From: Leisingera aquimarina DSM 24565
GTDB lineage: Bacteria > Pseudomonadota > Alphaproteobacteria > Rhodobacterales > Rhodobacteraceae
Assembly (NCBI RefSeq): GCF_000473165.1
Contig: NZ_KI421504.1
Span: 434,596-498,595, forward strand
Direction of reading: 5' to 3'
Length of the DNA: 64,000 nucleotides
Shown here piece by piece: positions 4,080 to 57,735 of the stretch. Within the stretch, counting starts at the first letter, position 1. Each line of letters opens with the position of its first letter. The position numbers were made by a program, and so were the translations under genes. Below the pieces are notes generated by a model. It searched no databases, was not told the DNA's origin, and saw only the letters and a list, made by a program, of their open reading frames with translations.

Positions 4080-4151
4080 GCGCCGCGACAGCGGCGCCAG
4101 GCCCAACGGGATGAGATCTCCAGATCGAAGCCGGGCGGGTGAGCCTCCCCC
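4080..4151 (+). repeat. Structured intergenic repeat, copy A
   Basis: Order of parts: hairpin 1 (GCGCCGC, loop GACA, GCGGCGC), the anchor GGCCCAAC, a short dyad around GATC, then GGGCGGGTGAGCCTCCCCC. Nearly the whole unit recurs inverted at 29963-30030, and diverged versions occur at 30182-30258, 39961-40042, 50428-50517 and 57663-57735. Copy A sits between the convergent bestrophin and folC genes. Confidence 0.75.
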
Positions 4152-4167: not shown

Positions 4168-5436
4168 TCAGCCGTTTTCGCGCAGGATGTGACCGGCCAG
4201 GTACAGAGAACCGCAGATCAGCACCCGGGCTTGCGGGTCCTTGGCGAGGATCGCCTCCAGGGCAGCCTGGGTGTTTTCGGCGGTTGCTGCCGCGACACCC
4301 ACGGCTTTGGCGGCGGCCTCGGTGTCTTCGGCGCTCAGCGTGTTGATCTCATCCGGGATCGAAATGGCGGTGAGGCTTGAGACATGCGGTGCCAGCGGCG
4401 CCATGTAACCGCTCACGTCCTTGGTGTTCAGCATACCGCAGATCAAATGCGTCGGGCGCTCCGGCAGCTTTGCCAGCACATCCGCCAGTGCAATGCCCGC
4501 CGCCGCGTTGTGGCCACCGTCCAGCCACAGCTCTGCCTCCGGTGCGGTCTCAATCAGCGGGCCGGTTTTCAGCTTTTGCATCCGGGCCGGCCATTCGGCA
4601 CCTGTCATCGCCGCCTCGCAGGCGGCCTCATCGGCGCCCAGATGGCGCAGGGCGGCGAGCGCAGCACCGGCGTTCTGGATCTGATGCGCGCCCAGCAATG
4701 CGGGCAGCGGCAGATCCAGCAGGCCGGTTTCGTCCTGGAACACCAGCCGACCGCGTTCCTCGGAAACATGCCAGTGCTGGCCATAGGCAATCACTGGCGC
4801 GCCAAGACGGGCGGCGGTGGCCTCGATCACTTCCATCGCTTCGTCGGGCTGCGGGCCGACCACAACCGGCACGCCGCGCTTGATGATGCCGGCCTTTTCA
4901 GCCGCGATCTTGGCCAGCGTGTCGCCCAGAAACTGCTCGTGGTCGATCGACACCGGGGTGATCACCGACAGTTCCGGCGTGATCACATTGGTCGCATCCA
5001 GACGCCCGCCCAGACCGACTTCCAGCAGCGTGTAATCTGCAGGCGTGCGGGCAAAGGCCAGCAGGCCGGCCACCGTGGTGATCTCGAAATAGGTGATGTC
5101 GATGCCGCCATTCTTGGCGTAGCACTCGTCCAGCACCTCCGTCAGATGCGGCTCCGAGATCAGTTCCCCCGCCAGCCGGATCCGCTCATGAAAGCGGGCC
5201 AGATGCGGCGAGGTATAGGCGTGCACGGACTTGCCCATGCCCTCAAGGCCCGCACGGATCATCGCCTGGGTCGAGCCCTTGCCATTGGTGCCTGCCAGGT
5301 GGATCACCGGCGGCAGCTTGTCCTGCGGGTTGTCCAGCGCCGCCAGCAGCCGCCAGACCCGATCCAGCGTCAGGTCGATGATCTTGGGGTGCAGCGCCAT
5401 CATGCGGGCGAGGATCGCGTCGGAGGTCTGGGTCAT
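4168..5436 (-). CDS. folC: Bifunctional folylpolyglutamate/dihydrofolate synthase
   Basis: A 422-residue Mur-ligase-type enzyme that adds glutamate to dihydropteroate and folates in the cytoplasm. The ATP loop GTNGKGST is at residues 49-56, followed by YTSPHLARFHERI, which is characteristic of FolC. Later come GLGGRLDATNV and the SIDHEQFLG stretch with its metal-binding histidine. I prefer the ATG at 5436, preceded by CAGGACCAGG, over upstream in-frame ATGs that lack a ribosome site. It lies downstream of accD, in the accD-folC order common in proteobacteria, with a hairpin in the 106-base gap. Confidence 0.93.
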   Translation of the reverse strand: MTQTSDAILARMMALHPKIIDLTLDRVWRLLAALDNPQDKLPPVIHLAGTNGKGSTQAMIRAGLEGMGKSVHAYTSPHLARFHERIRLAGELISEPHLTEVLDECYAKNGGIDITYFEITTVAGLLAFARTPADYTLLEVGLGGRLDATNVITPELSVITPVSIDHEQFLGDTLAKIAAEKAGIIKRGVPVVVGPQPDEAMEVIEATAARLGAPVIAYGQHWHVSEERGRLVFQDETGLLDLPLPALLGAHQIQNAGAALAALRHLGADEAACEAAMTGAEWPARMQKLKTGPLIETAPEAELWLDGGHNAAAGIALADVLAKLPERPTHLICGMLNTKDVSGYMAPLAPHVSSLTAISIPDEINTLSAEDTEAAAKAVGVAAATAENTQAALEAILAKDPQARVLICGSLYLAGHILRENG

Positions 5437-27138: not shown

Positions 27139-29940
27139 ATGAGCGGGACACAATTCGGCAAAGGTTGTCACCTCCATCTGATCGACGGCTCGGCCTTCAT
27201 CTTCCGCGCCTATCACGCGCTGCCGCCCTTGACCCGCAAATCCGACGGGCTGCCGATCGGGGCCGTGGCGGGCTTCTGCAACATGCTGTTCAAGCAGGTG
27301 GAGGACAACAAGGGCCCGGATGCGCCGACCCATGTGGCGGTGATATTCGACTATTCCGGCAAGTCCTTCCGTAACGAGATGTATGACCAGTACAAGGCCC
27401 ACCGCCCGCCCGCGCCCGAGGATCTGGTGCCGCAATTCCCGCTGACCCGCGAGGCAACCCGCGCCTTCAATATCGCCTGCAAGGAAGTCGAAGGCTTCGA
27501 GGCCGACGATATCATCGCCACCCTGGCACATCAGGCGCGCGATGCCGGCGGGCGCTGCACCATCATTTCCTCCGACAAGGACCTAATGCAGCTGGTCGGC
27601 GGCGGGGTTGAGATGCTGGACGCGATGAAGAACAAGCGCATCGACAGCGACGGCGTGGTGGAGAAATTCGGCGTCGGTCCTGACCGGGTGGTGGATGTGC
27701 AGGCGCTGGCGGGCGACTCGGTTGATAACGTGCCGGGGGCTCCGGGGATCGGGATCAAGACCGCGGCCCTGCTGATCAATGAGTTCGGCGACCTGGAGAG
27801 CCTTCTGGACCGGGCCGAGGAGATCAAGCAGCCCAAGCGCCGCCAGACGCTGATCGAGAAGCGCGACCAGATCGAACTCAGCAAGAAGCTGGTGCAGCTG
27901 GACTGCAACATGGAGCTGGATTTCACCCTGGATGATCTGGAGGTGAAGGAGCCGGATGCCGAGACCCTGCTGACCTTCCTGTCGGAGATGGAGTTCCGCA
28001 CCCTGACCAAGCGGCTGGCCGATCAGTTGGGGTTGGATGCGCCTGCGATCCCGGAGGCGCCTGCTGCCGTTTCCGAAGCCGCAGCCCCGGAGGCTGTGCC
28101 GTTCGACAAGGGCAAATACGAATGCGTCCGCGATGCGGCGGCACTGCAGGTCTGGGTCGACCGCATCCGCCAGCGCGGCTGGGTGGCGGCGGATACCGAG
28201 ACCACCGGCCTGGATGAAATGGTGGTGGATCTGGTCGGCATCTCCCTTTGCGTGGAAGCGGGCGAGGCCTGCTATATTCCCCTGGCGCATAAGACCGGGG
28301 GCGACGATCTGTTCGGCGGCGAAGGGCTGTCCGAAGGGCAGATGCCCTTGGAAGTGGCGGTTGCGATGCTGAAACCGGTTCTGGAGGATCCGGCGATCCT
28401 CAAGATCGGCCAGAACATGAAATACGATGCCAAGATCCTTCACCGATACGGGGTGGAGATGGCGCCGATCGACGACACCATGCTGATGTCCTATGCGCTG
28501 CATGCAGGCCTGCACGGGCACGGCATGGACACGCTGTCGGAACGCTATCTCGATCACACGCCGATCCCGATCAAGCCGCTGTTGGGCAGCGGCAAGTCGG
28601 CGATCACCTTTGACCGGGTGCCGATCGAGGACGCGGTGCCTTATGCTGCGGAGGATGCCGACATCACCCTGCGCCTGTGGCAGCTGTTCAAGCCGCAGCT
28701 GCATCAGGAGCAGGTGACCACGGTTTACGAGACCCTGGAACGGCCGCTGGTGCCGGTACTGGCAGATATGGAGCGCTACGGCATCAAGGTGGACCGCGAT
28801 ACGCTGAGCCGCATGTCAAATGCCTTTGCCCAGAAGATGGCCGGGCTGGAGGCGGAGATTCACGAGCTGGCGGGCCGCAGCTTCAATGTCGGATCTCCCA
28901 AGCAATTGGGCGAGATCCTGTTTGACGAAATGTCCCTGCCCGGCGGCAAGAAGGGTAAAACAGGCGCCTATGCCACCGGTGCCGATATCCTTGAGGATCT
29001 GGCCACCGAGCATGATCTGCCCGCGCGGGTGCTGGACTGGCGGCAGCTGTCGAAGCTGAAATCGACCTACACGGATGCGCTGCAGGATCACATCAACGCC
29101 GAGACCGGCCGGGTGCATACCTCCTACACCCAGACCGGGGCGAGCACGGGGCGCATGGCCTCGACCGATCCGAACCTGCAGAACATACCGGTGCGCACCG
29201 AGGAAGGCCGCCGCATCCGCGAGGCCTTTGTGGCGGAGGAGGGCAATGTGCTCTTGTCGCTCGACTACAGCCAGATCGAGCTGCGCATCCTGGCGCATAT
29301 GGCCGGCATCGACACGCTGAAAGCAGCCTTTGCCGAGGGGCAGGACATTCACGCAATGACCGCATCGGAGATGTTCGAGGTGCCGTTGGACGAGATGACG
29401 CCGGAAATCCGCCGCCAGGCCAAGGCGATCAACTTTGGTGTGATTTACGGCATCTCCGGGTTTGGCCTGGCGCGCAATCTGCGCATACCGCGCAAGGACG
29501 CGCAGGGGTTTATTGACCGCTATTTTGAGCGCTTCCCCGGTATCCGCAAATACATGGACGCGACGGTGGAGTTCGCCAAAGAGCATGGCTATGTGCAGAC
29601 CCTGTTTGGGCGCAAGATCCACACGGCGGAGATCAACGCCAAGGGGCCGAAGGCCGGCTTTGCCAAACGCGCCGCGATCAATGCCCCGATCCAGGGGACA
29701 GCCGCCGACGTGATCCGCCGGGCGATGATCCGGATGCCGGAGGCGATTACCCATCTGCCCGCGCGGATGCTGCTGCAAGTGCACGACGAACTGCTGTTCG
29801 AAGTGCCGGAAGCGGCAGTGGAGGAGACCATCGCAGCCGCCCGCCAGGTGATGGAGACCGCCGCAGATCCGGCGGTGCATCTGGGTGTGAAACTGGTGGT
29901 GGACGCAGGCCGTGGCCAGAACTGGGCAGAGGCGCACTGA
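27139..29940 (+). CDS. polA: DNA polymerase I
   Basis: A 933-residue replication and repair polymerase that removes primers and fills gaps. Residues 1 to about 290 are the 5'-3' exonuclease (LIDGSAFIFRAYHAL, GFEADDIIATLA, GVPGAPGIG-like DNVPGAPGIGIKTA). The 3'-5' proofreading domain is active-looking, with DTETTGLD near residue 353. The polymerase domain has motif A LSLDYSQIELRIL near 707, motif B RRQAKAINFGVIYG near 757 and motif C VHDELLFE near 880. Length is normal. It marks the right border of the accessory region and is followed by two copies of the structured repeat. Confidence 0.97.
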   Translation: MSGTQFGKGCHLHLIDGSAFIFRAYHALPPLTRKSDGLPIGAVAGFCNMLFKQVEDNKGPDAPTHVAVIFDYSGKSFRNEMYDQYKAHRPPAPEDLVPQFPLTREATRAFNIACKEVEGFEADDIIATLAHQARDAGGRCTIISSDKDLMQLVGGGVEMLDAMKNKRIDSDGVVEKFGVGPDRVVDVQALAGDSVDNVPGAPGIGIKTAALLINEFGDLESLLDRAEEIKQPKRRQTLIEKRDQIELSKKLVQLDCNMELDFTLDDLEVKEPDAETLLTFLSEMEFRTLTKRLADQLGLDAPAIPEAPAAVSEAAAPEAVPFDKGKYECVRDAAALQVWVDRIRQRGWVAADTETTGLDEMVVDLVGISLCVEAGEACYIPLAHKTGGDDLFGGEGLSEGQMPLEVAVAMLKPVLEDPAILKIGQNMKYDAKILHRYGVEMAPIDDTMLMSYALHAGLHGHGMDTLSERYLDHTPIPIKPLLGSGKSAITFDRVPIEDAVPYAAEDADITLRLWQLFKPQLHQEQVTTVYETLERPLVPVLADMERYGIKVDRDTLSRMSNAFAQKMAGLEAEIHELAGRSFNVGSPKQLGEILFDEMSLPGGKKGKTGAYATGADILEDLATEHDLPARVLDWRQLSKLKSTYTDALQDHINAETGRVHTSYTQTGASTGRMASTDPNLQNIPVRTEEGRRIREAFVAEEGNVLLSLDYSQIELRILAHMAGIDTLKAAFAEGQDIHAMTASEMFEVPLDEMTPEIRRQAKAINFGVIYGISGFGLARNLRIPRKDAQGFIDRYFERFPGIRKYMDATVEFAKEHGYVQTLFGRKIHTAEINAKGPKAGFAKRAAINAPIQGTAADVIRRAMIRMPEAITHLPARMLLQVHDELLFEVPEAAVEETIAAARQVMETAADPAVHLGVKLVVDAGRGQNWAEAH

Positions 29941-29962: not shown

Positions 29963-30030
29963 GGGGCACTCCCGCCCGGCTTCGATCTGGCGATCTCATC
30001 CCGTTGGGCCGGGCGCCGCTGACGCGGCGC
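29963..30030 (-). repeat. Structured intergenic repeat, copy B
   Basis: Reverse complement of copy A with few changes: hairpin GCGCCGC, loop GTCA, GCGGCGC; then GGCCCAAC, the GATC dyad and GGGCGGGAGT. It lies in the convergent gap between polA and the DUF2798 gene. Confidence 0.75.
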
Positions 30031-30134
30031 GGAAAGTGCTGGGCCCTCTCCACTCCGGGTCAAGGGAGGCGTAGCCTCCGCGCGGTCAGCGCGGCTTGCC
30101 CTTGACGCGGTCCACTTGGAAACAATCGGAAACG

Positions 30135-30162
30135 CCCCTAAGGGCAGACCTGCCCGTAGGGG
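30135..30162. terminator. Hairpin in the polA/DUF2798 gap
   Basis: CCCCTA and GGGCAG pair with CTGCCC and TAGGGG, with one mismatch and a 2-base loop. There is no T-run. Possibly a bidirectional 3'-end structure between the convergent genes. Confidence 0.4.
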
Positions 30163-30181
30163 CTTCTCAGCAAAAAGCCTT

Positions 30182-30258
30182 GCGCCGCACCAGCGGCGCC
30201 ACGCCCAACGGCTGCTGCGGCATCTTTGATGCTGCTTGCGGCAGGCGGGAGTTCTCCC
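30182..30258 (+). repeat. Structured intergenic repeat, copy F
   Basis: Hairpin 1 GCGCCGC, loop ACCA, GCGGCGC; then GCCCAAC; hairpin 2 GCATC, loop TTT, GATGC; then GGCGGGAG, TT and CTCCC, which itself closes a third small stem. It shares the architecture of the other five copies, but hairpin 2 has its own sequence. Confidence 0.75.
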
Positions 30259-30277: not shown

Positions 30278-30514
30278 TCAGTTTCCGGCGGGCTGCTTGA
30301 CCAGTTTCACCACCAACCTGCGCACCAGAGGGGCAGCAATAAAAGCCACTGCAAAGGCAATCGGCCAGCTGACCGGCCAGGCCTGCATCCAGGCGCCGCC
30401 AAAACCCGCACCGAACCCCAGCGCTTTCCAAGTCGCCACGCCAGTGACGATAAAAGACATCAGCCCCGACAAAATCAGGCTGAACAAAACAGGAGCAAAT
30501 CGGGCAGGCAGCAT
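30278..30514 (-). CDS. DUF2798 small membrane protein
   Basis: A 78-residue protein with two transmembrane helices (about 8-30 and 46-65), separated by a Gly-rich turn and ending in a basic tail RRLVVKLVKQ. The opening RFAPVLFSLILSGLMSFIVTG is characteristic of DUF2798 as I know it. The role is unknown. A perfect 14-15-bp hairpin (30556-30593) lies 40 bases upstream, between this gene and the hydroxypyruvate isomerase gene on the same strand. Confidence 0.85.
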   Translation of the reverse strand: MLPARFAPVLFSLILSGLMSFIVTGVATWKALGFGAGFGGAWMQAWPVSWPIAFAVAFIAAPLVRRLVVKLVKQPAGN

Positions 30515-37893: not shown

Positions 37894-39936
37894 ATGACAC
37901 AGACAATCCTGTTTGACCCGCTGGTGCCCTGGCCCGTGATCTGGGCCGCGGGCGGCGTGACCCTTTCGGTGCTGATCCTGGGTGTTTGGAAGGGGTTGTC
38001 GGGCTGGGCCTTGCGCGCCCTGGCGGCGCTTGTGCTGCTGGCCGCGCTTGCAGGCCCGGTGCATCAGAGCGAGGACCGTGCACCCTTAAGCGATATCGTG
38101 ATTGTGGCCGAGGACCAGACCGCCAGTCAGCGATTGCGCGACCGCCCGGAGCAGATGGCGCGGGCGCGGACCCAGCTGAAGGCAGCATTGGCTGCCCGGG
38201 CAGGCACCGAGGTGCACTGGGTCACGGTCCCGGATGGTGAGGGCGACGAGGGAACGCGGTTGATGGGGGCCATCACGCAGGCCCTGGCAGATGAGCCGCG
38301 GGCACGGGTGGCCGGCATCATCGCATTGTCCGACGGGCAGGTGCATGACGCGGGCCAGGTGTTGAACCTGCCTGCGCCGATGCATCTGCTGCTGACCGGC
38401 CGTAAGGATGATTGGGACCGCCGTCTGATCGTGAAAAACGCCCCCGGCTTTGCCATCATCGGCGAGCCGGTGAAGCTGACGCTGCGGGTCGAGGATCAGG
38501 GCGCGGTGCCGGTTCAGGGCGGCTTTGTTGATTTGGATATTTCGGTCGGCGGTGACGCCCCGCAGCGCTTTACCCTGCCGGTCGGCGTGGATTTCGAGCT
38601 GCCGATGGTGCTGAAGCACGGCGGGCGCAATGTGATCCAGTTCAGCGTGCCGGAAGAACCGGGCGAGCTGACCGCGCGAAACAATCATGCGCTGGTACAG
38701 ATCAATGGGGTGCGCGACCGGCTGCGGGTGCTGCTGGTCTCGGGCGAGCCGCACGCGGGCGGGCGCACCTGGCGCAACCTTTTGAAATCCGACAGCGCGG
38801 TGGATCTGGTGCATTTCACCATCCTGCGCCCTCCCGAGAAGCAGGACGGGGTGCCGGTGGAGGAGCTGTCGCTGATCGCTTTCCCCACCCGCGAGCTGTT
38901 TCTGGAGAAGATTGAGGATTTCGACCTGATCATCTTTGACCGCTACAAGCGGCGCGGCATCCTGCCAGCGGTCTATCTGGACAATGTGGCGAACTACGCG
39001 ATGGGCGGCGGCGCGGTGCTGGTGGCGGCGGGGCCGGATTTTGCCAGCGCCGACAGTATCTACCGCTCGCCCCTGTCGCTGATCCTGCCGGCGGAGCCTT
39101 CGGCGCGGGTGCTGGAGGAGGCCTACCGCCCCGAGGTGACGGATCTGGGCAAGCAGCATCCCGTGACCTCGGGCCTGGAGGGGGCGGAGGAGTGGGGCCG
39201 CTGGCTGCGCCAGGTCGATCTGCGCGCGCCTGAGGGCCATGTGCTGATGAGCGGCGCGGGCGAACGGCCCCTTCTGGTGCTGAACCGAGTCGGCGAGGGC
39301 CGGGTGGCGCTGCTGGCGTCAGACCACGCCTGGCTGTGGAGCCGCGGCTATGAAGGCGGCGGGCCGCAGCTGGAACTGCTGCGCCGTCTAGCCCATTGGA
39401 TGATGAGGGAACCGGAGCTGGAGGAAGAAGCGCTGTGGGCCGAAGCCTCGGGCCAGCGGATGCGGATCCTCCGCCGCACCCTGGCCGGGCAGGCCGGGCC
39501 GGTGACGGTGACCAACCCGGATGGCTCCACCGTGGAGCTGGCGCTGCGCCAGACCGCGCCGGGCCAGTGGGAAGCCCGCTATGAAGGGCCGGAGGCTGGG
39601 CTCTACCGGCTGGAGGAAGGCGGCGAGACGGCAGTGGCGGGGCTGGGGCCTGCGGCACCGAAGGAGTTCGAAGAAACCATTGCCACCGGCGATGTGCTTG
39701 CCCCGGTGCTGGAACCTTTGCGTGGTGGTGTGCTGCGGCTGGAGGACGGGATGCCGTCCTTGCGCAGCGTGCGGGCCGCACGGCCCGCGGCGGGCCGCAG
39801 CTGGATCGGCCTCACACCGCGGGAAGCTTATGAGACCCTCTCGGTCAGCCAAGGACCGCTGCTGCCAGGCTGGCTGGCGCTGGTGATGGCGTCTTTCTTT
39901 ACCGTCGCGGGCTGGCTGCGGGAAGGGCGGCGGTAG
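37894..39936 (+). CDS. Membrane protein with glutamine-amidotransferase-like domain (MoxR operon)
   Basis: A 680-residue protein with two N-terminal helices (about 13-55) and one at the C-terminus (about 655-675). Between them lies a VWA-like segment (IVIVAEDQTASQRL, GIIALSDGQVHDAG), a beta-sandwich region and then a large class-I GATase-like domain (VLLVSGEPHAGGRTWRNLL, FDLIIFDRYKRRGIL, GGGAVLVAAGPDFA, WLWSRGYEGGGPQ). This layout closes MoxR/DUF58/DUF4159 operons in related bacteria. The catalytic Cys of true amidotransferases is not seen. It ends the operon before repeat copy E. Confidence 0.85.
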   Translation: MTQTILFDPLVPWPVIWAAGGVTLSVLILGVWKGLSGWALRALAALVLLAALAGPVHQSEDRAPLSDIVIVAEDQTASQRLRDRPEQMARARTQLKAALAARAGTEVHWVTVPDGEGDEGTRLMGAITQALADEPRARVAGIIALSDGQVHDAGQVLNLPAPMHLLLTGRKDDWDRRLIVKNAPGFAIIGEPVKLTLRVEDQGAVPVQGGFVDLDISVGGDAPQRFTLPVGVDFELPMVLKHGGRNVIQFSVPEEPGELTARNNHALVQINGVRDRLRVLLVSGEPHAGGRTWRNLLKSDSAVDLVHFTILRPPEKQDGVPVEELSLIAFPTRELFLEKIEDFDLIIFDRYKRRGILPAVYLDNVANYAMGGGAVLVAAGPDFASADSIYRSPLSLILPAEPSARVLEEAYRPEVTDLGKQHPVTSGLEGAEEWGRWLRQVDLRAPEGHVLMSGAGERPLLVLNRVGEGRVALLASDHAWLWSRGYEGGGPQLELLRRLAHWMMREPELEEEALWAEASGQRMRILRRTLAGQAGPVTVTNPDGSTVELALRQTAPGQWEARYEGPEAGLYRLEEGGETAVAGLGPAAPKEFEETIATGDVLAPVLEPLRGGVLRLEDGMPSLRSVRAARPAAGRSWIGLTPREAYETLSVSQGPLLPGWLALVMASFFTVAGWLREGRR

Positions 39937-39960: not shown

Positions 39961-40042
39961 GGCGGGGCCCTCCCGCCCATCGCAGGTTTCCTGCCGGAAC
40001 CCAGCGAAAGTTGGGCCATGCGCCGCGCCAAAGGCGCGGCGC
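39961..40042 (-). repeat. Structured intergenic repeat, copy E
   Basis: On the minus strand: hairpin 1 GCGCCGCGCC, loop TTT, GGCGCGGCGC (40020-40042); GGCCCAAC; hairpin 2 GCAGG, loop AAA, CCTGC (39982-39994); then GGGCGGGAG. It lies between the MoxR operon and pbpC, which converge. A further perfect stem (CGCTTCGGGC, loop GCA, GCCCGAAGCG; 40047-40069) lies beside it. Confidence 0.75.
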
Positions 40043-47858: not shown

Positions 47859-50159
47859 ATGACCCTTGCCAGCAAATTAGCGGAAGAAAGACGGGCCCGG
47901 CTGGCCGCCGAACGGCTGCTTGAGCTGAAGCAGGCCGAGCTGTCTGCTGCCAACCGCAAGCTGGGCCGCCATGCGCTGGCACTGACCAAGCAGATCGGCC
48001 AGACCCAGGCCGAAGTGGCCACCGTGCGCGACGAAAACGCCAAGGTGAAATCCGATCTTAATACCGCGCATGAAAAGGTTGAGACTGCGGAGCGGCGGCT
48101 GTGGCATTCGATCCAGGCGTTTCAGGACGGGTTTGCCTTTTTTGATGCCGATGGCAGTCTGATCGGGGCGAACACCGCCTACCTCAATATCTTCGACGGG
48201 CTGGAAGAGGTGTCGCCCGGCATTTCCTACGGGCGGATACTGCAGCTTTTGACCGATGAGGGGCTGATCAATACCGGCGAGCTGGGCACCGGTGCCTGGC
48301 GCGAAATGATGAGTGAGCGCTGGCTTTCGCCCTCGCCCGATCCGGTGGTGATCCAGCTGTGGGATGAGCGGTATCTGCGGCTGATCGACCAGCGCGGCCA
48401 TGGCGGCGACGTGGTGACGCTGGCGCTCGATATCACCTCGACCGTACGGTACGAAAAGGACCTGCGCGGCGCCCGTGCCCGCGCCGAAGCGGCAAACCGG
48501 GCAAAATCCGCCTTTCTCGCCAATATGAGCCATGAGATTCGCACCCCGATGAACGGGGTGGTGGGCATGGCCGAGCTGCTGAGCGACACCGAGCTGGACG
48601 AGGAACAGCGGCTTTATGCCAACACCATCAAAAACTCGGGCGAAGCGCTGCTGGTCATCATCAATGACGTGCTCGACTATTCCAAGATCGAAGCCGACAA
48701 GCTGGAACTGCATCCCGAACCCTTTGACCTGGAGCGCAGCCTGCACGAGGTAGTGATGCTGCTGCAGCCCACAGCGCGGGACAAGGGGCTGAAGCTGCTG
48801 GTCGATTACGACCTGTTCCTGCCGACCCGCTTTACCGGCGATCCAGGCCGGATCCGGCAGGTGCTGACCAATCTGGCCGGCAATGCGGTGAAGTTCACCA
48901 AGGAAGGCCATGTGACTCTGCGGGTGACCGGTGTTTCGTCGCCTGATGACAAGCAATGCGCGGTGCATATCTCGATTGAGGACACCGGCATCGGCATCCC
49001 TGAAGAGAAGATTGAGCATATATTCGGCGAGTTCAACCAGGTCGAAGACGAGCGCAACCGCAAGTTTGAAGGCACCGGGCTGGGGCTGGCGATCTCCAAG
49101 CGGCTGATCGAAATGATGGGCGGCGAGATCTGGGTCGACAGTGAGGAAGGCAAAGGCTCCTGTTTTGGCTTCCGCTTGCCGCTGCCCATTGAAGGAGCAG
49201 CAGAGCGGCCTCTGCCGAAGCTGCCCAGCTCGCTGCGCCATGTGTTGCTTGTGGATGACGCGCCGCTCAACTGCGAGATCCTGCAAAAGCATCTGCAGAT
49301 GCTGGGCATTCAGGTCACCACTGCTGAAACCGCACCTGGTGCGCTTGCCGCAATGCATAACAGCATTGATCTGGTCATCAGCAGCCATAACCTGCCTGGG
49401 CTGGATGGCGTGCAGCTGGCGAGGGATCTGAAATCCGGATCCTGGCGCGGGGTGCCGGTGCTGATGCTGAATTCCGGTCCGCATGGTGCCAATGATCCGG
49501 AAATCCGCCAGCTGGCGGACGGGGTGCTGCAAACCCCGGCACCGCGGGACGATCTTTTCAACCAGCTGGCCAAACTGGGGGCCAATGCTGCCGGCCCCGG
49601 CTGCGAGGCGCCGCCGCAGGACGCGCTGACGGCGGCAGACACTTTAGAGGACACGGCAGCGCCGCCGGCAGGCCTTGAGGCGCCGCAGACCGAACCGCCC
49701 GCCGGCCCGCCGCCGGAACCGGAAATCCGCCGGATGCGGGTGCTGGCGGCCGAGGACAACAAGACCAATCAGCTGGTGTTCAGAAAAATGGTGAAAGAGC
49801 TGAACATAGAGTTGAAATTTGCCTGCAACGGCCTGGAGGCGGTCGAAGCCTTCCAGACGTTCCGCCCGGATCTGATTTTCATGGACATCTCGATGCCAAT
49901 GATGGACGGCAAGGAAGCCACAGCCAGGATCCGCAGTATCGAAGCGGACACCGGCGGCCATACCCCGGTTGTGGCCCTGACTGCACATGCAATGGCAGGC
50001 GATTCGGAAGGCATTCTCGCGGCCGGTTTGGACCATTACCTGACCAAGCCGCTGCGCAAGGCGCTGATCCACGAAAAGATCCGCGCCTGTGCGCCGGACG
50101 GGACACAGGCCTTGGATCAGGACGGCCCGCCTGCCCCCGCTGTTGCCCAAGCACTCTGA
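47859..50159 (+). CDS. Soluble hybrid histidine kinase/response regulator
   Basis: A 766-residue cytoplasmic hybrid kinase without membrane helices. An N-terminal coiled coil ([20 protein letters not shown]) leads to a PAS domain (about 95-205; [22 protein letters not shown]). The HisKA domain has the phospho-acceptor His225 in MSHEIRTP, and the ATPase has intact N, G1 and G2 boxes ([27 protein letters not shown]). Two receiver domains follow. The first lacks its phospho-Asp (Ser509 in LVISSHNLP); the second has Asp676 in FMDISMP. ATG 47859 is preferred over 47814. It is transcribed divergently from the macroglobulin gene, and no dedicated output protein is adjacent. Confidence 0.9.
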
Positions 50160-50519
50160 ATTGGCAGGTCTCCCCCGCCGCCGGCACGCCATGGCGGTCA
50201 ATCAGTGAAACAAGCTGTTCTCCGGGCGCGCCCGGGCTTCTGTTCTTGACACTGTGCTGAGCTGGGTCCCGGTTGCCAGGCGCCGTCAGGATCCTGCTTT
50301 TCCGGGTGTTGCCCTGCCCGTTTGCAGCGGACGCTCTTTCCATCACCCTGTCTGCCTTAAACAACGGAGAAGCTCTCCCGCGTCCGCAGGCGCACCGGCT
50401 GCGCCGGCACCGGCCTTGGGCGGCCTTGGGCGTGGCAGCGCGCAGAGCGCGCTGCCACGCCCAACCGTGAAGGTGCATTCTTTGAATGTGCAGGAGCGGG
50501 CGGGAGCCTTCCTCCTGCC
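50160..50519. other. Gap between the hybrid kinase gene and yaaA
   Basis: A 360-base convergent gap. No gene is supported. Its right part is the strong hairpin and anchor sequence of repeat copy C. Confidence 0.55.
50428..50517 (+). repeat. Structured intergenic repeat, copy C
   Basis: Hairpin 1 is a perfect 16-bp stem (GGGCGTGGCAGCGCGC, loop AGA; 50428-50462), overlapping the CCCAAC anchor. Hairpin 2 is GCATTC, loop TTT, GAATGT (50475-50489). GCGGGCGGGAG and a C-rich end follow. It lies between convergent genes, like copies A, B, E and F. Confidence 0.75.
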
Positions 50520-51284
50520 TCAAGCGCCGCGCAAGAAGACAGGTTTACCGGGGGCCGACATTGCTGGTTGAAAGACGTAGCCGCCGGCGTCGAATTCTTT
50601 GAGGCTTTCCGCATCTGTCAGCCGGTTCTGGATAATGAACCGCGCCATCGCGCCGCGGGCGCGCTTGGCGTAGAAACTCACCACCTTGGGGGTACCGTTC
50701 TTGTCTTCCATGAAGACCGGCGTCACCACCTGCAGCTTCAGCGCTGCCAAGTCCACTGCGCCAAAATACTCCTGGCTGGCGCAGTTGACCAGTACGCCGG
50801 CATCCACCGCCTCGGCCTGCGTATTCAGCGCTTCGGAAACCCGGCTGCCCCAGAATTCATAAAGGTTCTTGCCGCGCGCATTTTTCAGCCGCGAACCCAT
50901 CTCCAGCCGGTAAGGCTGCATCGCATCCAACGGGCGCAGAACGCCGTAAAGACCGGACAGGATGCGGAAATGTTCCTGCGCCCAGGCCAGTTCATCCGAG
51001 TCCAGCGAAGACGCTTCCAGACCCTGATAGGTGTCGCCGGCAAAGGCCAGCGCCGCCGGGCGGGTGGCCACAGTTGCCGGATCCGCCGAAAACCCTTGAA
51101 ACCGTGCATGGTTCAGCTTGGCCAGATCCTCGCTGATGTGCATCAGCTTCATCAGATCCGCCACGGATTGTTCGCGGGCCACCCCGGCCAGCTCCACCGC
51201 GTCATCATGCAGCGCGGGCCAGGTCATCTCCTGCTCCCGTTCCGCCCAGTCCAGCTTCTTGGCCGGAGAGGTCACTACCAGCAT
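50520..51284 (-). CDS. yaaA: Peroxide stress protein YaaA
   Basis: A 254-residue YaaA (DUF328/UPF0246) protein, which in E. coli lowers free iron and protects DNA from peroxide. Family segments are VVTSPAKKLDW at the start, GDTYQGLEASSLD, LSGLYGVLRPLDAMQPYRLEM and VVSFYAKRARGAMARFII. Full length. It is followed upstream on the same strand by recQ 29 bases away, so the two may be co-transcribed. Confidence 0.95.
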   Translation of the reverse strand: MLVVTSPAKKLDWAEREQEMTWPALHDDAVELAGVAREQSVADLMKLMHISEDLAKLNHARFQGFSADPATVATRPAALAFAGDTYQGLEASSLDSDELAWAQEHFRILSGLYGVLRPLDAMQPYRLEMGSRLKNARGKNLYEFWGSRVSEALNTQAEAVDAGVLVNCASQEYFGAVDLAALKLQVVTPVFMEDKNGTPKVVSFYAKRARGAMARFIIQNRLTDAESLKEFDAGGYVFQPAMSAPGKPVFLRGA

Positions 51285-55905: not shown

Positions 55906-56771
55906 AACTGTTTGTTGCCATATGCTTAGCGGTTGCCGGGTTATTTAATCCGGCAAGTGCGCAAACCCCAGCCAAGGCCCTGTTCGGGGCCAAGCCCAGC
56001 GCCTCGCAGCAGCGCCCCGCGCCGTTCGGCTCTTATGCCAAAGGATGCGTTGCCGGCGCCGCCCAGCTGCCCGAGACCGGCCCCACCTGGCAGGCGATGC
56101 GGCTGAGCCGCAACCGAAACTGGGGGCATCCGGCAGCGATTGATTTTGTTGAGGATCTCAGCCGGTTTGCCGCCAAGCAGCGCGGCTGGAAAGGCCTGTA
56201 CATCGGCGACATCAGCCAGCCGCGCGGCGGGCCGATGCTGTCGGGCCACCGCAGCCATCAGATCGGCCTTGATATCGACATCTGGATGCGGCCGCCGGAC
56301 CGGCTGAACCTCAGCCGCAACGCACGGGAAAACATCTCCTCAATCTCGATGCGCCGGGCCAAGGGCGCCTATGTGAACTCCAGCTGGACCCGCGCTCATC
56401 ACGAGATCCTTAAAGCCGCGGCGCAGGACAAGCGGGTGGCGCGGATTTTCGTCTTTCCCGGCGCCAAGGTGCAGATGTGCAATGACGAAAAGGGCGACCG
56501 CCGCTGGCTGCGCAAGATCCGGCCCTGGTGGGGTCATCACTACCACTTCCATGTGCGGCTGGCCTGCCCGCGCGGTGCGCGCGGCTGCGCCGATCAGGCA
56601 GCCCCGCCCAAAGGCGACGGCTGCACCGATGCGCAGCGCTGGGTCAATGACATTCTGAACCCGCCGCCGCCGAAACCAGTTGACCCCAACGCGCCAAAGC
56701 CTAAACCGCGGCGTGATTACACCCTATCGGACCTGCCCAAGCAATGCGCCGCCGTTCTGCAATCAAACTGA
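55902..56771 (+). CDS. mepA: Penicillin-insensitive murein endopeptidase
   Basis: A 289-residue exported M74 metallopeptidase that cuts D-Ala-mDAP crosslinks. It has a signal peptide at residues 1-21 (ending NPASAQ), zinc ligands in SGHRSHQIGLDIDIW and the downstream HHYHFHVRL, and six cysteines. The best start is TTG at 55902, eleven bases after GGAGA, which keeps the signal peptide; no ATG does. The C-terminal proline/lysine-rich tail reads through the start of the next gene, giving a 28-base overlap in a different frame. Confidence 0.92.
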   Translation: MKLFVAICLAVAGLFNPASAQTPAKALFGAKPSASQQRPAPFGSYAKGCVAGAAQLPETGPTWQAMRLSRNRNWGHPAAIDFVEDLSRFAAKQRGWKGLYIGDISQPRGGPMLSGHRSHQIGLDIDIWMRPPDRLNLSRNARENISSISMRRAKGAYVNSSWTRAHHEILKAAAQDKRVARIFVFPGAKVQMCNDEKGDRRWLRKIRPWWGHHYHFHVRLACPRGARGCADQAAPPKGDGCTDAQRWVNDILNPPPPKPVDPNAPKPKPRRDYTLSDLPKQCAAVLQSN

Positions 56772-57658
56772 TCCTGGCCCTGGCCGCAACTGGCGGGCTG
56801 GCGGCTGCGGGTTTTGCGGCAAACCGCCCCGCAGCTGCTGCGGCAGGCAAGGCGCAGCACCTCAGCAGCTATACTTGGAAGCTGAACCAGCGCTGGTTCG
56901 GCGGGTTCTCGGCTCTGAAGCTCAGCAGCGGCGGCACGGCAATGACCGTTCTCAGCGACCGGGCTACTTTGGTGACAACCCGGATCCAGCGCAGCCAGGG
57001 GCTGATTTCAGGCATCACTGCCCGGCGCGCGCACGAATTGCGGGCCTCCACCGGGAAGACGCTCAAAGGCTTTGCCGGAGACAGCGAAGGGCTGGCGGTC
57101 GCGGCGGACGGCAGCCGCTATATTTCCTTTGAAGGCGCCGCACGGGTGGCGCGCTACCAGCACCCCGGTAGCCGCGCCAAGGTTCTGCCGCGCCCCAAGG
57201 CCTTCCGCAGCCTGCCGCCCAACAAATCCCTGGAAACCCTCGCCATCGATTCCCGCGGACGGCTTTACACCTTGCCCGAGCGCGCCTTGGATAAACACGG
57301 ACAGATCCCGGTCTGGCGCTGGAACGGCCGCCGCTGGTCACGCCCCTTCAGCCTGCCGCCTGAGGGTGGATTTCTGCCGGTGGATGCCGATTTCGGCCCT
57401 GATGGGCGGCTCTATCTCCTGGAGCGCGACTTTACTCTGTTTGGTTTCCGCAGCCGGTTGCGGCGATGGGATATCACCGCCGCAGGACCGGCGAACGAAA
57501 CCGTTCTGCTGCAAACCGGTTCCGGCACCCATGACAATCTGGAAGGGCTGTCCGTCTGGGCAGATGAAATCGGAGGGTTGCGCGCCACCATGGTGTCGGA
57601 CGACAATTTCCTGCCCTTTCAACGCACCGAACTCGTGGAATACGCGCTGCCCCGCTGA
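56744..57658 (+). CDS. Esterase-like activity of phytase family protein
   Basis: A 304-residue protein with a twin-arginine-like or plain signal peptide (MRRRSAIKLILALAATGGLAAAGFAA). A beta-propeller-type domain follows, with FGGFSALKL, DSEGLAVAADGSRYISFEG, ETLAIDSRGRLYTLPE and DNLEGLSVWADEIGG. These match the esterase-like-activity-of-phytase domain as I know it; the substrate is unclear. It begins inside the end of mepA and ends before a terminator at 57765. Confidence 0.85.
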   Translation: MRRRSAIKLILALAATGGLAAAGFAANRPAAAAAGKAQHLSSYTWKLNQRWFGGFSALKLSSGGTAMTVLSDRATLVTTRIQRSQGLISGITARRAHELRASTGKTLKGFAGDSEGLAVAADGSRYISFEGAARVARYQHPGSRAKVLPRPKAFRSLPPNKSLETLAIDSRGRLYTLPERALDKHGQIPVWRWNGRRWSRPFSLPPEGGFLPVDADFGPDGRLYLLERDFTLFGFRSRLRRWDITAAGPANETVLLQTGSGTHDNLEGLSVWADEIGGLRATMVSDDNFLPFQRTELVEYALPR

Positions 57659-57662
57659 TCAC

Positions 57663-57735
57663 GCGCCCCGCCAGCGGCACCGGGCCCACCCGAAGGGGGC
57701 ATTTCCTGAAATGCGCCCGCGCGGGCGGGAGCCCC
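57663..57735 (+). repeat. Structured intergenic repeat, copy D
   Basis: Hairpin 1 is weaker here; the anchor reads GGGCCCACC. Hairpin 2 is a perfect GCATTTC, loop CT, GAAATGC (57699-57714). GGGCGGGAG follows at 57723-57731. This is the only copy in a tandem rather than a convergent gap. Confidence 0.65.

Follow-up and report, generated by a model that had tools for sequence, protein, structure and literature searches.

The repeats lying between gene ends in a 64,000-nucleotide stretch of the Leisingera aquimarina DSM 24565 chromosome (hereafter the window) are a real, structured RNA family. Our preferred reading, in which our belief and our doubt are about equal, is that they form a chromosomal family of cis-acting RNA elements, each a 3′-end module without a U-tract that faces transcription approaching a gene from behind. 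New here are the proximity of the element to the stop codon of the antisense gene, its back-to-back pairing, its persistence at orthologous sites with compensatory changes, and a possible tail hairpin.

Copies of the element in the window

All six copies reported in the earlier note were found where it had placed them (A, 4080-4151; B, 29963-30030; C, 30182-30258; D, 39961-40042; E, 50428-50517; F, 57663-57735), with A, C, E and F on the plus strand and B and D on the minus strand, and their second-hairpin sequences are as it described. The order of hairpin 1 (H1), CCCAAC, hairpin 2 and GGCGGGAG is also present, but the two anchors are not separate parts: the CCC of CCCAAC pairs with the GGG of GGCGGGAG, so that hairpin 2 and both anchors make up a single long irregular hairpin, which we call P2. 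Anchor variants had been assigned to copies A and D; they are actually in A (GGCGGGTG) and F (CCCACC), while D is exact on the minus strand. Five of the six copies do lie between convergent genes.

Copy A consists of an H1 at 4080..4098 and a P2 of the short subtype, with the variant GGCGGGTG, at 4102..4141 (both +), 26 nt away from the stop of an antisense Mur-ligase-family gene (4168-5436) that we take to be folC-like. Copy B also has a short-subtype P2 (29969..30008, -), which 28 nt separate from the stop codon of an antisense gene of the DNA polymerase A family (polA, 27139-29940), and its H1 is at 30012..30030 (-). In copy C, H1 (30182..30200, +) is followed by P2 (30204..30251, +), 26 nt from the stop of an antisense DUF2798 gene (30278-30514); GGCGGG and the following tail (30244..30258, +) may form a further hairpin, P3, which would exclude the base of P2, a suggestion taken from the family-wide test described below. 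Copy D has its P2 at 39970..40015 (-), 33 nt from the stop of an antisense gene (37894-39936), and its H1 at 40020..40042 (-). The H1 of copy E (50428..50462, +) is extended and also takes in the CCC of CCCAAC, and its P2 (50460..50506, +) stands 13 nt from the stop of an antisense yaaA-family gene (50520-51284). The same H1 is common to a back-to-back partner missed by the earlier note (50375-50439, -), whose P2′, of the CCCAAG type, occupies 50375..50430, leaving 215 nt between its outer end and the stop codon of the gene at 47859-50159; this partner is weak alone (covariance-model E-value 0.06), yet it is present at 13 of 21 orthologous loci including that of this genome. Finally, copy F lies in sense orientation between co-directional genes, its imperfect H1 (57663..57681, +) beginning 4 nt past the stop of a sense gene (56744-57658) in a region where the minimum free energy (MFE) prefers another fold, and its P2, the CCCACC variant, at 57685..57731 (+).

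The gap past polA between copies B and C (30031-30181 of the window) holds further structure, seen by eye in five genomes (L285-L305): an inverted repeat, GTCAAGGG..CCCTTGAC, encloses two small hairpins, and there is also a hairpin resembling CCCCTAAGGGCAG-ACC-TGCCCTTAGGGG. This could possibly be a small RNA; in E. coli, Spot 42 lies after polA.

Abundance in the genome

The exact core, CCCAAC-N10..40-GGCGGGAG, matches the genome 82 times, 81 of them on contig 1 (4.25 Mb) and one on contig 3, where its reversal matches only 2 times genome-wide, and with a spacing of 18-40 it occurs 36 times in 1.264 Mb of contig 1 against 0 reversed. Over the same 1.264 Mb the bare pattern with up to one mismatch gave 39 matches against 24 in the control, and with up to two mismatches 83 against 127; since this tolerance makes the pattern uninformative, variant copies were counted through covariance models only. 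These find 55 copies in 1.264 Mb of chromosome, 2 of them inside a weak predicted ORF. Model R1, built from 23 copies, has 97 of its 100 matches at E<0.01 on contig 1, which makes up 79.5% of the genome (p 6e-7). Contigs 2, 3 and 6 together carry the other 3. Among Rfam 15 covariance models there was no match at the gathering threshold in the window, none at E<=1 in 801 nt and none at E<=0.1 in three loci. The family is apparently undescribed in Rfam 15 or in the literature searched, and within these bounds the earlier note was right not to recognise it.

Architecture and covariation

On its folding strand the element runs from H1, a GC-rich hairpin that often ends in GGCGCC plus 2-3 nt, through 2-3 nt to P2 and then to a pyrimidine-rich tail. 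The base of P2 is made of CCC/GGG and a C/G pair flanking an AA/GC internal loop, and its tip is variable. When the bases after CCCAAC were compared with those before GGCGGGAG (75 of the 82 cores), the second position was Watson-Crick in 93% (z 9.5 against shuffles) and the first in 45%; in 78 cores this first inner position showed 34 Watson-Crick and 33 G·G oppositions.

The covariation on which the earlier note had staked its reading is strong. In an alignment of 118 copies gathered with R1 (116 distinct), which was fitted to the model and so leans towards its structure, 85.0% of cells pair against 62.7 when shuffled, and the covariation score is 0.426, compared with 0.122 +- 0.008 after shuffling and no more than 0.110 after sliding. 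Next to the internal loop, the C-G pair appears as CG in 101 copies, GC in 9, UA in 1 and something else in 2. Four of five covariation measures exceed all 500 shuffles in this alignment; the fifth, pairs changed on both sides, does not rise above them (12 vs 11.6, 282/500). The MAFFT alignment A2 of 23 copies, obtained after dropping 7 of 39 matches for alignment A1 and then 9 more, gives a score of 0.320 against 0.153, again above all 500 shuffles. Single-copy MFE is a poor detector of the element: z-scores are -3.37 for copy C, -2.67 for D and -7.46 for E, and weak for A (-1.08), B (-1.66) and F (-0.96); the reverse complements of B and D fold equally well or better (-1.69 and -4.45), and in the MFE fold of copy E the base of P2 gives way to the extended H1.

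Some copies have an additional module before H1, roughly CTGCCCTT-N5-GCTTCTCAGC (GCCTCTCAGC in one), which is part of a hairpin in several of them (contig 1 positions 464790, 498836, 2152563, 2638187 and 4038047).

The folding strand

With a stem finder that makes no distinction between G·U and A·C, we found these pairs in P2 in a ratio of 53:12 (counted over the tips of 97 copies and over three anchored pairs of 78 cores), where shuffled inner sequences gave 434 and 382; the strand read in the earlier note is therefore the folding strand. For H1 of the same copies the ratio was 10:13. A further 179 distinct cores, taken at other loci and not all independent since they include orthologues, gave 105:19 for P2 and 27:12 for H1, which shows little strand bias. 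The bias of P2 speaks against a DNA cruciform as the whole story. Of the selection on an RNA or a cruciform proposed in the earlier note, what stands is single-strand folding of P2, most simply as RNA, while H1 is not clear; the G·U bias could also reflect folding of single-stranded DNA. We also considered a bias tied to an upstream sense gene and discarded it, as the ratio is 113:23 with such a gene and 22:5 in the pooled co-directional antisense copies (p 0.79). Because the bias is equal where an upstream sense gene is missing, one has to assume a source for the transcript of those copies.

Placement relative to genes

Gene positions here come from our own dicodon caller and not from an annotation. 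Of the gaps of at least 70 nt, 128 are convergent, 342 co-directional and 174 divergent; elements occur in 27, 18 and 0 of them, respectively, so that the enrichment in convergent gaps over the rest, which the earlier note had set up as a decisive comparison, is pronounced (Fisher p 7.7e-10). The 97 R1 matches on contig 1 divide into 51 convergent, 23 co-directional antisense, 19 co-directional sense and 1 divergent, with 3 in weak ORFs. The distance between the end of the element and the stop codon of the opposite-strand gene is typically 3-42 nt. With the copies in weak ORFs, the divergent one and the co-directional sense ones set aside, 74 of the 97 (E<0.01) could be placed against an antisense gene, and in 59 of these the GGCGGGAG end is at most 42 nt from its stop codon, against 21.6 expected and a maximum of 34 in 2000 trials under uniform placement, a null that ignores the length of H1. 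One of these 59 overlaps the end of the antisense gene by 14.

Elements less than 300 nt apart are arranged back-to-back in 29 of 30 pairs and facing in one, and in 13 pairs the members overlap or are separated by no more than 16 nt, and seem to have one H1 in common. In loci of other genera, picked for high scores, 30 copies were examined and 29 could be placed; 27 of these have an antisense gene on their 3′ side, and several are related copies of one genome. The named loci count 44 convergent, 15 co-directional antisense, 9 co-directional sense and 4 divergent copies, the divergent ones speaking against our reading; L116 is not counted here, nor are 13 copies that lie at the edge of a locus and 2 within called genes.

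A second 3′-end repeat was noticed in the same chromosome, roughly CACCCCCGGAGTATTT-N4-ACCAGAAAGAAGC (e.g. contig 1 positions 438662, 71225 and 130779). Its AGAAAGAAGC occurs 16 times in 1.264 Mb against once reversed; 15 of these are intergenic, 12 of them convergent, and 4 of the repeats are within 150 nt of an element.

The tail and canonical terminators

A U-tract after P2 was looked for in 130 copies and not found: the frequency of T is 0.08-0.37 at positions +1 to +10, C is commoner at most of them, and positions +3 to +10 past GGCGGGAG are pyrimidine-rich and A-poor (for this set, 7 of 62 rows with E-values of 0.06-1, including the window partner at 50375-50439, and 2 of 77 rows had been dropped). 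The element is thus not a canonical intrinsic terminator. A single register gives the best match between its tail and GGCGGG (4.83 of 7 pairs vs 3.30-4.31 in the others), and 60 of 88 exact copies reach at least 6 of 7 pairs against 26 of 88 for a control sequence 40 nt further on, which suggests that the pyrimidine tail may form a competing hairpin, P3, with GGCGGG that would exclude the base of P2. Covariation of the tail with the variable base beside GGCGGG was not seen (z -0.67); as the partners in P3 are mostly invariant letters, covariation cannot confirm it. A P3 pairing specific to each copy was tried and rejected, the observed energy being -9.40 kcal/mol, with -9.47 for swapped and -8.94 for shuffled tails.

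Canonical terminators are found at about equal rates at convergent ends with an element (9/39, 13/39 and 10/34) and without one (62/202), and are commoner at co-directional ends with an element (22/41 vs 71/324 without). They coexist with the element, which thus does not take their place. In some copies a canonical terminator of the antisense gene's strand sits exactly at H1. H1 with a U-tract was rejected as the general terminator of the antisense gene, since the upstream flank of H1 on the element strand is not consistently A-rich in 95 single-ended copies.

Conservation and distribution

Orthologous sites were counted in 21 genomes of the genus, among them the present one: copy C (polA) is found in all 21, copy E (yaaA) in 19, copy A (folC-like gene) in 18, copy B in 17 and the partner of E in 13. 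Between detected orthologues P2 is 0.84-0.93 identical, the next 20 nt 0.35-0.61 and the stretch upstream of H1 0.52-0.76, values that cover only copies found by the model. At the site of copy C compensatory changes were observed, for example GCTGC/GCAGC against GCTTC/GAAGC in the orthologue L292. In one genome (G007, locus L300) copies B and C enclose a 181-nt segment that runs the other way round: read in minus orientation, it is 85-92% identical to this genome and to three relatives, an outcome that recombination between inverted H1 arms would produce.

R1 found matches in 21 of 21 genomes of the genus, in 5 of 16 from other genera of the family and in 0 of 24 from other families, and model R2, for which 22 candidates per genome were scored, in at least 48 of 248 genomes of the family. 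Since the number of candidates scored per genome was limited to 150, 93 or 22, these counts are lower bounds and the zeros are no proof of absence. A scan of named genomes gave at least 116 stretches; among the 80 matches listed, 79 bear names that we take to be of Rhodobacterales. The remaining one, the locus L116 (JAHVJD010000004.1), is labelled Nocardioides marinus DP1N28-1 and is 82% identical over 4.4 kb to the genome of the window, so that the label is probably wrong through mislabelling or contamination; it is also about 80% identical over 3.4 kb to Leisingera sp. ANG1 (L104).

Possible role of the element

We propose that RNA polymerase would arrive behind the antisense gene, coming from the convergent neighbour or from other antisense transcription, and that the element, presumably transcribed in each copy, would face it. 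H1, P2 and P3 would then make an RNA 3′ end, either by stalling and ending the incoming transcript or by trapping and protecting it, before it could turn antisense to the coding region of the neighbour. Two back-to-back modules, often sharing H1, could guard both genes of a convergent pair. A bolder form of this proposal, which we regard as tentative and somewhat doubtful, is that the element represents a new class of 3′-end signal, a U-tract-independent terminator that is factor-assisted or switches between P2 and P3, faces antisense transcription and provides genome-wide back gates at Rhodobacterales gene ends.

Rho-dependent transcripts are known to be trimmed back to hairpins, and the element could instead be a 3′-end stabiliser: transcripts would end further on (e.g. 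at Rho) and exonucleases would trim them to H1-P2, protecting the upstream sense mRNA. The stable tandem hairpins, the strand-specific folding, the location on the 3′ side and the missing U-tract would all fit. However, this leaves unexplained why P2 is so close to the stop codon of the opposite gene (59/74), and why both neighbours run against the element in 23 of 94 placed copies, and we consider it rather unlikely. It is also improbable, in our opinion, that the element serves as a platform for an RNA-binding protein or RNase (e.g. an RNase III or ProQ-like site) that would regulate mRNAs from their 3′ UTRs, although the conserved AA/GC internal loop, the recurrent G·A and G·G oppositions and the conserved anchors do resemble recognition features; any protein partner would have to be a putative one.

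The earlier note had also suggested a REP-like element, that is, a REP- or MITE-like mobile DNA repeat whose hairpins would serve its own single-strand transposition and whose position at 3′ ends would reflect tolerated insertion sites. Spread was indeed seen in one relative (G025), where copies in five loci share 113-199 nt at 89-97% identity and the similarity stops at or shortly past GGCGGGAG, so that the module can spread as DNA. In addition, the excerpt of PMC3733652 places REPs, likewise, mainly in convergent and unidirectional gaps, and the G·T pairs could reflect folding of single-stranded DNA. No REP-type transposase was recognised, however. Three matches to PF01797 (Y1 transposase) occur in the genome, the third with an internal stop; the two that could be classified are IS200 TnpA equivalogs (107.7 and 102.1 bits, cut-off 55) and fall below the cut-off of 80 of the RAYT model (25.6 and 24.2), and there is no element within 1.5 kb around any of the three. 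Copies within the genome of the window mostly differ in stems and flanks, four of five examined sites are kept in 17-21 of the 21 genus genomes with compensatory changes at the polA site, and elements gather close to the antisense stop in a way that departs strongly from uniform placement. That the element is such a mobile repeat seems to us quite improbable.

If the 3′-end module reading is correct, an abundant group of marine bacteria marks about one fifth of its convergent gaps (27/128 here) with one RNA module. With 55 copies per 1.264 Mb holding over the 4.25-Mb chromosome there would be about 185 sites, a natural set with which one could ask how convergent transcripts avoid mutual invasion without U-tracts, and terminator annotation across Rhodobacterales could be improved.

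Comparison with known systems

The element resembles bidirectional intrinsic terminators between convergent genes in its location, its hairpins and its double-ended forms. It differs in that it has no U-tract after P2, carries a conserved P2 motif, folds P2 in a strand-specific manner and coexists with canonical terminators. It also has features in common with the REP/BIME repeats with RAYT, which are GTAG- or CGTC-tagged: as far as the excerpt of PMC3733652 describes them, these are palindromic, reach high copy numbers, are mostly found in convergent and unidirectional gaps and include many close units in opposite orientation, with GT pairing noted, and one relative here shows spread. By eye, 97 copies of the element show no constant GTAG or CGTC tag at their ends, and CGTC is present inside some H1 loops. 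Unlike the REPs of that excerpt, our element has two hairpins with covarying stems, stands at a short distance from the opposite stop codon and is kept at orthologous sites, and RAYT was not recognised. Finally, the HRC-8-4 and uORFC-8-2 motifs are, in the excerpt of PMC8632094, structured RNAs restricted, as the element may be, to Rhodobacterales; they are tied there to single loci (cco operons and cysS) and have U runs, whereas the element is a dispersed 3′-end family.
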